Of a DNA stretch of 64,000 nt, positions 40,962 through 44,306 are shown one piece after another. The DNA is taken from contig JAJDDI010000066.1 of NCBI GenBank assembly GCA_029260375.1, forward strand, positions 1 through 64,000, read 5' to 3'. This stretch comes from Phycisphaerales bacterium. Its GTDB lineage: Bacteria; Planctomycetota; Phycisphaerae; Phycisphaerales; UBA1924. The position numbers and the translations under genes were made by a program. Below the pieces are notes generated by a model. The model searched no databases. It saw only the letters and a program-made list of their open reading frames with translations, and was not told where the DNA came from. Each line of letters starts with the position of its first letter. Position 1 is the stretch's first letter.

Positions 40962-42359
40962 TTACTCCGCCGCGGGCTGGATCACCCCGCGGCACTCGCC
41001 GAAGCCGATCCGACGGAACCCCTCACGCTCGCAGAACCCCTTGATGATGATCTCGTCGCCGTCGCCCAGGAACTTGCGCTCCTCGCCGGTCGGGAGCGTG
41101 ATGGGCGTGCGCTCCGAACCGGGCACGACCTTGGGCGGGGTGGCGAACGGGTCGCCGTCCCACGTCAGTTCCAGCAGGCACCCGCGCGCGTCGCGCGTCG
41201 GACCCGAGACCGTGCCCGAGGCGAGCAGGTCGCCCGGGTTCATCTGGCAGCCGTTGGACGCGTGGTGCGTGAGCATCTGCCCGATCGTCCAGTACATGTC
41301 CCTGAACGAGCCACGGCTCAGGCGGATCGGGTCCATGCCCTTGGACCGCATCTCCGACGAGCAGAGATACACCTCCAGCGTGATGTCCACGCCGCCGCTC
41401 TTGACGTTGTCGTCGCTGGTCAGGTAGTTCAGCGGCTTGGGGTCGTCGATCGGGCGCTCCATCGCCGGGCAGCGGAAGGGCGCCAGCGCCTCCATCGTCA
41501 CGATGTACGGGCTCACCGTCGTCGCGAAGTTCTTCGCCAGGAACGGCCCCAGCGGCACGTACTCCCACTTCTGGATGTCCCGCGCCGACCAGTCGTTGAC
41601 CAGGCACATCCCCAAAATATGCTCCTCCGCGTCGCTGATGTCGATCGACTCGCCCCTCACGTTGCCCCGCCCAACGACGAAGCCGACCTCCAGCTCGTAG
41701 TCCAGCAGCTTGCACGGGCCGAACGCCGGCGGCCCGTCGGCGATCGTCGCCCCGGGCAGGAGCTGGCCCCTGGGTCTGCGGACCGGCGTGCCCGACGGAA
41801 CGATGGTCGATGCCCTGCCGTGGTAGGCGATGGGGATGTGCTTGTAGTTGGGCAGCAGCGGGTTGTCGGGTCGGAACATGGAGCCGACGTTGGTGGCGTG
41901 GTAGAGCGAGGCGTAGAAGTCGGTGTAGTCAATTGGCGTCGCGGGTGGGTCAAACACACAATCGGTGACGTCGTACAGAGAATCTCGTATCGCTGCCCGA
42001 GACTTGGAATCCGCAGTTGCTGATAGAAGTGCTTGGATCCTAGGACGCACTTTGCGTGCAACAGTTCCAGACCAGTTCTCAAGGAAAGAACGTACATCGT
42101 CTGGATCTGAACCGAAGAAGCTCTCGCCGCCGGTGACAGGTGTGTCGCCGAGCAGCGGGACGTCCGTGCCGAGCTCAAACAGATCGAGTACCTGATCGCC
42201 GATTCTTACACCGACCCGCTGCGGCGTACCCATCTCGTGCGGCGGTGCGAACCTGCAGAATGGCAGATTCTGAATCGGAAAGTCCGTCGCCGGGTCGTTG
42301 GCGGACTCGACCCAGGACTCGAGCTTGGGGTCGTGGGTGTCGTCGATGGCGTAGGGCAT
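40962..42359 (-). CDS. fahA: Fumarylacetoacetase
   Basis: 465 residues. Hydrolyses fumarylacetoacetate to fumarate and acetoacetate in the last step of tyrosine/homogentisate breakdown. The N-terminal domain and the catalytic domain (PIDYTDFYASLYHATNVGSMFRP, LLDYELEVGFVVG, MCLVNDWSARDIQKWEYVPLGPFLAKNF, GDLLASGTVSGPT) are complete. The central stretch encoded at about 41941-42130 is markedly lower in GC than the rest of the gene, though the protein alignment is continuous. Followed upstream by the DUF559 cassette. Confidence 0.94.
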   Translation of the reverse strand: MPYAIDDTHDPKLESWVESANDPATDFPIQNLPFCRFAPPHEMGTPQRVGVRIGDQVLDLFELGTDVPLLGDTPVTGGESFFGSDPDDVRSFLENWSGTVARKVRPRIQALLSATADSKSRAAIRDSLYDVTDCVFDPPATPIDYTDFYASLYHATNVGSMFRPDNPLLPNYKHIPIAYHGRASTIVPSGTPVRRPRGQLLPGATIADGPPAFGPCKLLDYELEVGFVVGRGNVRGESIDISDAEEHILGMCLVNDWSARDIQKWEYVPLGPFLAKNFATTVSPYIVTMEALAPFRCPAMERPIDDPKPLNYLTSDDNVKSGGVDITLEVYLCSSEMRSKGMDPIRLSRGSFRDMYWTIGQMLTHHASNGCQMNPGDLLASGTVSGPTRDARGCLLELTWDGDPFATPPKVVPGSERTPITLPTGEERKFLGDGDEIIIKGFCEREGFRRIGFGECRGVIQPAAE

Positions 42360-42374
42360 GGTCGGTCCTTGATT

Positions 42375-42432
42375 CGGACCCCCTCCGACCTCGCGTTCGC
42401 TCGGCCACCTCCCCCGCCGGGGCGGGGGAGGA
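42375..42432. repeat. DUF559-cassette repeat, copy A
   Basis: 58-bp repeat with CGGACCCCCTCCG at its left end and the palindrome ending GGCGGGGGAGG at its right. Direct copy of 42906-42964 except for a few bases in the inner hairpin. Forms a large inverted repeat with 42454-42507. Confidence 0.85.
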
Positions 42433-42440
42433 TCAGGGGG

Positions 42441-42905
42441 TCAGGTCTTCTTGATCCTCCCCCGCCCCGGCGGGGGAGGTGTCGCCGAAGGCGACGGAGG
42501 GGGTCCGTCGATGCGGTCCCGCGCCGCCCGGTGGATGGTACGGAGCACATCATCCATATTCTGCAAGACGTCCACGGCCGGAATCCGCAGCACCCGCAGT
42601 CCTCTGTCGATCATCCATGTATCTCGCGTTGCATCGCGGTCCCGCCGCACTCCCGCGTGCGAGGCCCCATCGATCTCGATGACGAGCCGCGCATCGTGAC
42701 AGTAGAAGTCCGCGATGTACGCCCCGAGCGGGTGCTGGCGCCGGAACCGCAGATCAGCCAGCCGTTTGCCTCGGAGGTGGTTCCACAGCATGACCTCGGG
42801 CGGGGTCATCACGGCGCGAAGGGCCTTCGCCTTGGCACGGGCGGATTGGTGGGCGCGGGTTGCCTTGCGGAACGCGCGTGAATCCGGTTCGCTCCGTTCG
42901 TTCAT
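42441..42905 (-). CDS. DUF559 (Vsr-like) endonuclease-domain protein
   Basis: 154 residues. DUF559 pattern: LRAVMTPPEVMLWNHLRGKRLADLRFRRQHPLGAYIADFYCHDARLVIEIDGASHAGVRRDRDATRD, a PD-(D/E)XK-type fold with the active-site core ADFYC...VIEIDG. Such proteins are predicted nucleases; few are characterised. The ATG is four bases from GGAGGGGG that lies in the right-hand repeat, so the repeat supplies the ribosome-binding site. The final ~20 residues are translated from the inverted repeat, and the stop lies in the spacer between repeats A and inverted A. It appears to be a unit with the repeats rather than with the neighbouring genes. Confidence 0.85.
   Translation of the reverse strand: MNERSEPDSRAFRKATRAHQSARAKAKALRAVMTPPEVMLWNHLRGKRLADLRFRRQHPLGAYIADFYCHDARLVIEIDGASHAGVRRDRDATRDTWMIDRGLRVLRIPAVDVLQNMDDVLRTIHRAARDRIDGPPPSPSATPPPPGRGRIKKT
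42454..42507. repeat. DUF559-cassette repeat, inverted copy
   Basis: Inverted copy of the same repeat with a different inner hairpin (TCGCC-TTC-GGCGA). It is translated as the proline-rich C-terminus of the DUF559 protein (SPSATPPPPGRGR). Confidence 0.85.
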
Positions 42906-42964
42906 CGGACCCCCTCCGACCTCGCTTGCGCTCGGCCACCTCCCCCGCCGGGGCGGGGGAGGAT
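42906..42964. repeat. DUF559-cassette repeat, copy B
   Basis: Direct copy of 42375-42432, immediately upstream of the DUF559 start codon on the minus strand and ending five bases before the MFS gene's stop codon. Confidence 0.85.
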
Positions 42965-42968
42965 GACT

Positions 42969-44306
42969 CTACCCGTCCGGCCCGATCGGGTCCGGCTCGT
43001 CCGGGTCGGGATCGCTCAGATCCCGCGCCACCGGCGGCGTCGGCGGCCTCAGGAACAACGACGCAACCCCCAGCGGCACGCCCGTGAGCGCGAACACGAT
43101 CAGGATCGGCGTGAAGTCCTCCCCCGCGAGCAGGTACGCGCCCCCCGTCAGCCACGGGCCCACGCCCGTCGCCGCGACCGAGGCCAGCGTGATCGTCCCC
43201 CGGATCGACCCGTGGTGCGTGCGCCCGAAGTACCGCGCGATCGCCGGGTTCCCCACGGCCACCGACACGCCCATCGACACGCCGAACAACCCCATCCCGA
43301 GCGCCATCGTCCCCACGATCCACCCCTCGGGCACGCGCCCCGACACCGCCACCAGATACACCACGCACGACACGAGCATGATCGCCGGCCCGAACGGCAG
43401 CAGCTTCCGCGGCGGGACCCGATCGACGAGCCACCCCAGCAGCAGCATCGAGAACCCGAACGCGATGGGCCACGGCTGGATCGCGATCGCGGTCTGGGCT
43501 TCGCTCCCCTCCAGCCCGGCGCTGCGCAGCATCACCTGCATATGAAACAACAACGCCGTCCCGATCAGCCCGTTGGCGCACATGATCGGGACCAGGATCC
43601 AGTACGCCCGCGTCCGCATCGCCTGCCCGCGCGTGAACGCAGGGTCGTCCCTCGGGGGCTTGCCCCCGTGCAGGACGTCATGGGTCGCGTGCTCGGCCCT
43701 GTCGCCGTCGAGGTGCTGCCCGATGTCCTCGGGCTTGTTGCGGAAGATCAGCAGCACGAAGGGCAGGGTCAGCAGCAGGATCATCCCCGCCAGCGCGAAC
43801 GCGGCGGGCTTCCACCCGTGGTGCTCGATGAGCCACGCCGTGGGCGCGGGCATGAGCGCCGAGCCGCCCGCGAAGCCGACGATCGCCAGCATGGAGTGCG
43901 CGGTCCCCAGGCGGCGTTCGAACCACATCGAGATCGTGTGCCCCGCCAGCATCCCCAGCGAGCCCTGCCCCAGCAGACGCATGAAGAAGAAGCACAGCAC
44001 CAGCCCATACATGCCGCGCACCTGCGTGAGCAGCGCCACGGCGCCGGCGCAGCCGAGCGCGACGAGCAGCACCACACGGCGCAGCCCGTGCTTGTCGGCC
44101 ATCCGCCCGATCCAGGGCAGGGGGAACGCCGCGAGGATGGTCCCCAACGTGTACGCACGGCTCAGCTGCTCGACATCGAGATCCAGCGACGTCCGCAGTG
44201 AGTCGTTGAAGAGCGAGACGACGACCGTCTGCGTGGGCATAGTGGCCATCGCCATCGCGATCGCGACGCCGAGCATGACCCAGCCGTAGAAGAATGGTCG
44301 TTTCAT
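42969..44306 (-). CDS. MFS transporter
   Basis: 445 residues, twelve predicted transmembrane helices. It starts FFYGWVMLGVAIAMAMATMPTQTVVVSLF and has the loop-2 motif GRMADKHGLRR between helices 2 and 3, typical of the major facilitator superfamily; the pattern resembles the oxalate/formate-antiporter-like subgroup. The C-terminus is long, acidic and cytoplasmic (DLSDPDPDEPDP). Substrate unknown. It lies between the DUF559 cassette and an unrecognised conserved gene near fahA and could move a metabolite of that pathway, which is only suggestion. Confidence 0.88.
   Translation of the reverse strand: MKRPFFYGWVMLGVAIAMAMATMPTQTVVVSLFNDSLRTSLDLDVEQLSRAYTLGTILAAFPLPWIGRMADKHGLRRVVLLVALGCAGAVALLTQVRGMYGLVLCFFFMRLLGQGSLGMLAGHTISMWFERRLGTAHSMLAIVGFAGGSALMPAPTAWLIEHHGWKPAAFALAGMILLLTLPFVLLIFRNKPEDIGQHLDGDRAEHATHDVLHGGKPPRDDPAFTRGQAMRTRAYWILVPIMCANGLIGTALLFHMQVMLRSAGLEGSEAQTAIAIQPWPIAFGFSMLLLGWLVDRVPPRKLLPFGPAIMLVSCVVYLVAVSGRVPEGWIVGTMALGMGLFGVSMGVSVAVGNPAIARYFGRTHHGSIRGTITLASVAATGVGPWLTGGAYLLAGEDFTPILIVFALTGVPLGVASLFLRPPTPPVARDLSDPDPDEPDPIGPDG

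Follow-up and report, generated by a model that had tools for sequence, protein, structure and literature searches.

REP and REPIN elements are proposed to be moved in trans by RAYTs, and the source of another widespread repeat class, the intrastrand triplex motif (TM), has so far remained open. TMs (TM/TM_ECO, ITxF; earlier PIT elements) are known from >260 bacterial genomes, with CCCTCNCCC..GGGNGAGGGNNNGGGNGAGGG as the E. coli consensus, and the formation of a triplex by single-stranded TM_ECO has been demonstrated in vitro (Holder et al. 2015, PMC4666352). They are among the commonest intergenic repeats of bacteria, and genome instability has been reported to arise from them. Mobility genes are stated to be absent near TMs, and neither endonucleases nor DUF559 are ever mentioned in that work (PMC4666352). 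Among proteins with a DUF559 domain, one from Caulobacter, VsrA (CCNA_02930), has been read by those who studied it as a nuclease of mismatch repair (PMC12907096). No report linking DUF559 to TM repeats was found in the open literature (PMC full text); subscription papers were outside this search, and an earlier report is possible.

A DUF559 cassette and its repeats

The window, the whole stretch of 64,000 nucleotides that was analysed, carries on its minus strand a DUF559 PD-(D/E)XK/Vsr-like nuclease gene of 154 aa (42441..42905, domain at about 42525-42842). In a Pfam search, residues 22-127 matched DUF559 (PF04480) with E 1.2e-31 and 109 bits, compared to a curated cut-off of 20.6, and nothing else was matched apart from a sub-threshold MTES_1575. 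Residues E37, Q57, E77, D79 and H83, which belong to the positions conserved without exception in 20 homologues, are candidates for the active site. An AF2 model of the protein (pLDDT 87) gave 3hrl (N. gonorrhoeae NGO0050) and the homing endonuclease I-Bth0305I (3r3p) as best Foldseek matches; the catalytic domain of the latter was matched with E 8e-5 by sequence profile and E 1.5e-4 by structure, and E. coli Vsr was a distant, weak structural match (E 0.18). The modelled fold matches most closely the catalytic domain of I-Bth0305I. The cassette lies between a fumarylacetoacetate hydrolase family (FAH) gene downstream (40962..42359, minus strand, PF01557 2.7e-37) and an MFS transporter gene upstream (42969..44306, minus strand, PF07690 2.1e-35). 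No HUH/Y1 transposase was detected in the cassette with Pfam, which sets it apart from REP/RAYT systems in its enzyme, and no DDE or other transposase gene was present within 42375-42964, which sets it apart from insertion sequences and MITEs.

Two direct repeat copies of 60 nt, 97% identical, were located at 42374-42433 and 42905-42964, and an inverted copy at 42454-42507, with a 30-nt core that was 100% complementary and a 13-nt end, CGGAGGGGGTCCG. The repeat is composed of a hairpin CCTCCCCC..GGGGGAGG, a variable second hairpin (GTCGCC..GGCGAC, GTCGGC..GCCGAC, GTCCGC..GCGGAC or GTCACGC..GCGTGAC) and a mirror third strand GGAGGGGG. Stem 1 of the aligned copies is CCTCCCCCGCC/GGCGGGGGAGG, and the closing block, GGAGGGGGTC, mirrors GGGGGAGG; therefore, the window repeat has the layout of a TM, and the 7-nt third strand is perfect in each of its three copies. 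By this sequence layout, it is a TM made of a pyrimidine/purine hairpin and a mirror third strand, for which a triplex is predicted. A search of known RNA families gave no match to the hairpin beyond sub-threshold ones to microRNAs.

Copy 1 (42375..42431, minus strand) points its third strand toward the FAH-like gene and stands tail-to-tail with copy 2. On the end side of the nuclease gene, copy 2 (42456..42507, plus strand) overlaps the last codons of the open reading frame with its third strand toward the gene, and on the start side, the third strand of copy 3 (42906..42962, minus strand), which follows stem 1 and the second hairpin, abuts the ATG. The cassette unit is therefore the gene between copies 2 and 3, with both G-rich third strands pointing inward, and copy 1 lies outside it. 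An earlier note on this DNA had described a DUF559 nuclease as the sole gene of the cassette, bounded by two direct copies and one inverted copy of a palindromic repeat. The nuclease, the absence of any other gene in 42375-42964 and the three copies were all corroborated, whereas the simple palindrome had to be replaced by a TM and the first copy turned out to be extra to the unit; the triplex-motif nature of the repeats and the existence of one repeat type per nuclease had been overlooked.

A 24-bp palindrome of the repeat occurs three times in the window, compared to 0.01 expected from dinucleotide shuffles. In the whole genome (3.39 Mb, 99 contigs), 20 copies were found by pattern-based counting, so most copies of the palindrome are solitary. 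Chance placement of the repeats was ruled out by the shuffle expectation, and also by the flank counts of DUF559 and control genes given below.

Association of DUF559 genes with TMs across genomes

All three DUF559 genes of the window's genome have TMs on both sides, the other two (L001 and L003) with a different TM type, CCCTCTCCCC..GGGGAGAGGG..GGGTGAGGGG. The presence of flanking TMs was followed in a locus set made of 150 genomes of the window's class, 55 of them with a DUF559 match (31 of the strong solitary type), and of an 80-locus scan of bacterial genomes. With a strict detector, a TM was found on at least one side of 90/104 DUF559 loci and of 4/132 control ORFs from the same loci (Fisher p 2e-44), and on both sides of 62/104 compared to 0/132 (Fisher p 4e-29). 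With a relaxed detector, the values were 98/106 and 4/122 for at least one side, and 75/106 and 1/122 for both sides. The association spans at least 13 named phyla. Within the window's class, none of 30 Y1_Tnp/RAYT-family genes had TM flanks; among HNH genes, TMs were found on both sides in 0/30 and on one side in 1/30. These two controls rule out that TMs flank any small nuclease or mobile gene.

The repeats near DUF559 genes also share the anatomy seen in the window. Hairpins with asymmetric arms were followed by a mirror third strand better than by a direct repeat, 72 to 14, and the long second loops of the TMs contained a stem of at least 5 bp in 55%, compared to 12% of shuffles. With the strict detector, the third strand was more often directed toward the gene (80 vs 33 on the left, 71 vs 33 on the right), and outward third strands were found in some lineages, namely Gastranaerophilales, Chloroflexota, and plasmids of Deinococcus and Synechocystis.

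Left and right TMs of one DUF559 locus resembled each other with a match score of 0.67, compared to 0.30 after permutation (p <= 1e-4), and with 0.72 compared to 0.41 within the window's class alone. On the DUF559 tree, the TM gap class required 22 changes, compared to 28.9 when shuffled (minimum 23), and the TM stem class 40, compared to 54.1 (minimum 46). The TM type therefore follows the DUF559 clade. In the window's family, L002-like genes carry the CCTCCCC type, and L001, L003, L039 and L153 carry the CCCTCTC type, the node that separates the two having a support of 83 only. As L153 shares the site upstream of FAH with L002 and yet has the other TM type, the repeat follows the nuclease and not the site.

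The number of dispersed TMs was also related to the nuclease: at least 10 CCCTCTCCC-type TMs were present in 18/31 genomes with a strong solitary-type DUF559 gene, compared to 6/119 without one (p 2e-10, 150 genomes). Six genomes without a strong DUF559 gene (G104, G030, G048, G051, G058 and G046) contained 16 to 101 CCCTCTCCC-type copies. In such TM-rich genomes, either the nuclease was lost, or it was missed, or another mobiliser is at work.

Several DUF559 genes had a distinct structure or setting. Single internal stop codons were found in G016:C23 (L028), G041:C104 (L045) and G139:C249, as expected for decaying selfish genes. In G086:C67, G097:C20 and G040:C80, given as examples, a partial DUF559-like domain was part of open frames of ~700-1000 residues, unlike the solitary genes. 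A DUF559 gene of phage Tunturi_2 (L261), annotated as an HNH endonuclease, had no TM nearby, and in N. gonorrhoeae (L256) an NGO0050-like gene was located between CTCTCTCC-type TM-like repeats, at about 590-630 and 1214-1250 of this locus.

Gain and loss of units and solitary TMs

The site upstream of FAH is a recurrent DUF559 site, with the gene present in 8/29 family relatives, in units that differ in TM type and, in one case, in orientation. In three relatives (L142, L148 and L149), the MFS gene adjoins FAH without a DUF559 gene in between. Where this MFS neighbour is conserved, the site was empty in L148, held one hairpin in L149 and TMs only in L142, and was occupied in L145.

TM-DUF559-TM units were also detected inside genes and operons. 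On plasmids of Synechocystis sp. B12 (L257 and L258), one of the genes split by such a unit is of the DUF1156 methylase type and the other of the BREX pglX type, and at the same position of the pglX-type gene, Pseudanabaena has an in-frame TM-short spacer-TM instead, a contrast that parallels that of REPIN and RAYT. On a Deinococcus psychrotolerans plasmid (L260, 598-1062), a unit with two identical TMs separates paaD from paaZ in the paa operon. In the window's genome, thiC, a phosphoglucomutase-type gene and a DUF58 gene contain solitary TMs in frame, which are absent from 28/29 relatives in thiC and from 29/29 in the phosphoglucomutase-type gene; the boundaries of these two insertions are not exact because they sit in length-variable linkers.

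In E. coli, DUF559 is represented by ycjD. Past the 3' end of this gene lies TM_ECO number 9 (1351204-1351239), and the end itself is overlapped by a degenerate TM, which is intact in strain HYM1; no TM was found on the start side. The locus was covered in 3362/5426 genomes. A clean empty site for ycjD was not found, and no relation between TM count and the presence of ycjD was evident in the sampled rows. The place between fabI and sapF (L129/L135 vs L019) is taken by ycjD in some E. coli strains; in others it contains a TetR/RND efflux operon, which was seen in strain 7784 and, with the fabI side checked, in two other strains.

Solitary TMs at pstB-pstA and fepB-entC are cleanly absent from many E. 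coli strains (92 and 186 bp), and gain or loss at both loci affected the element in its entirety. The pstB-pstA copy is flanked on both sides by AACCGTGT, an 8-bp direct repeat that could equally well be a target-site duplication or the product of a deletion between direct repeats; no clear counterpart was seen at fepB-entC. Thus, both DUF559 units and solitary TMs are gained or lost at orthologous sites, including in-frame insertions into genes.

Proposed mechanism and relation to known systems

The earlier note had asked whether DUF559 genes and such repeats co-occur in other genomes and whether occupied and empty sites exist. Both questions were answered positively, the former by the flank counts and the survey of 150 genomes, the latter by the FAH site, the pglX-type gene and the solitary TMs of thiC, the phosphoglucomutase-type gene and E. 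coli. Its idea that such a unit could be the DUF559 equivalent of REP/RAYT or of homing systems is well supported in the sense that the system works like them. The best reading is that of a cognate nuclease-repeat system which operates like REP/RAYT and is unrelated to it. The cassette is probably an instance of a bacterial nuclease-repeat system, in which a single-domain DUF559 gene stands between inverted TMs of its own type and acts by the mechanism proposed here.

In this mechanism, the nuclease would recognise the folded TM as a hairpin or triplex, probably in single-stranded DNA during replication or repair, and would nick or cut at the TM or at a TM-like target. Host repair or replication might then copy the TM into a new site, alone, as a TM-TM pair or with the gene. 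A solitary TM would be a non-autonomous product, mobilised in trans in the way that RAYTs are proposed to move REP/REPIN elements. As the enzyme is a hydrolytic nuclease, a homing-like or repair-coupled route is suggested in place of strand transfer by a transposase. From the association and the mobility we infer that DUF559 is the cause of the movement. Some observations count against this: most TM copies stand alone; some TM-rich genomes, such as G104 with 101 copies, have no detected DUF559 gene; a target-site duplication candidate was found in one case only (E. coli pstB-pstA); it is not obvious how a PD-(D/E)XK hydrolase would join strands; and the role ascribed to Caulobacter VsrA (PMC12907096) is a different one. 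TM-DUF559-TM packaging in >12 phyla points to a minimal mobile element that has gone unnoticed, and makes DUF559 a candidate for the agent that spreads TMs. More tentatively, and with a chance that we put just short of even, this would be a bacteria-wide class of minimal mobile elements, in which a PD-(D/E)XK nuclease has a triplex/hairpin as its cognate end and disperses the TM either singly or together with the nuclease gene; DUF559 would then be the missing mobiliser of the G/C-rich TMs.

The chief rival holds that TMs spread otherwise, by replication slippage or host recombination, and that the DUF559 gene, in this case the selfish partner, invades existing TM pairs by cutting and repair copying without moving them. 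Such homing into TMs would fit the TM-only sites at which relatives hold a unit (L142; L265 vs L258) and the likeness of the fold to I-Bth0305I, but alone it leaves unexplained both the many more TMs of genomes with DUF559 and the fact that TM type follows the nuclease clade, so we regard it as unlikely. If the TMs were instead terminators or autoregulatory sites of the DUF559 gene, with the dispersed copies as a by-product, their position in the window, abutting the start codon and overlapping the gene end, would be accounted for, and very similar repeats in Enterobacter sp. 638 have been proposed as terminators (PMC2869309). This cis-regulatory or structural role is improbable given the solitary TMs in frame inside genes, the gain or loss of the whole element at the E. 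coli loci, and the lack of detected promoter or terminator activity of E. coli TMs (PMC4666352).

It is still less probable that DUF559 encodes a VSP-type mismatch repair or defence enzyme, the gene of which lies in permissive intergenic spots where TMs also gather, without a functional link. In line with this alternative, VsrA has sufficient activity in vivo to set off the SOS response when the cytosine methylase ScmA is missing (PMC12907096); however, the TM flanks are not shared by control ORFs, RAYT-family genes or HNH genes, the two TMs of a locus match one another as well as the clade of the nuclease, and PADLOC gave weak partial matches only, with no specific defence family for the window gene.

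A nuclease gene tied to TMs across phyla makes the origin of these repeats testable. If the preferred reading of a cognate nuclease-repeat system is true, the large orphan DUF559 family would gain a function and, to our knowledge, it would include the first nuclease whose cognate repeat is a DNA triplex motif; if the mechanism were proven, a new class of element would be defined.

Compared to known systems, the window repeat shares with TM_ECO the hairpin and the mirror G-rich third strand, but its sequence is not that of TM_ECO, as it consists of CCTCCCCCGCC with a second hairpin between the stem and the third strand. With Vsr and Caulobacter VsrA, the window protein shares the nuclease superfamily, although it resembles E. 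coli Vsr only weakly in structure and no methylase gene is a neighbour in the window. I-Bth0305I, an EDxHD homing endonuclease, is similar in catalytic-domain fold and sequence profile, and DUF559 has orthologous occupied and empty sites, as homing endonucleases do; in contrast, the DUF559 unit has no intron or intein, is flanked by repeats and occupies many sites per lineage, with no single recognised target known. As in REP/REPIN elements with their RAYT, one small nuclease gene is flanked by its own type of palindromic repeat, of which many solitary copies and inverted pairs occur elsewhere, whereas the enzyme is a PD-(D/E)XK nuclease and not a member of the Y1/HUH family of RAYTs (TnpA_REP), and its repeat carries a mirror third strand.
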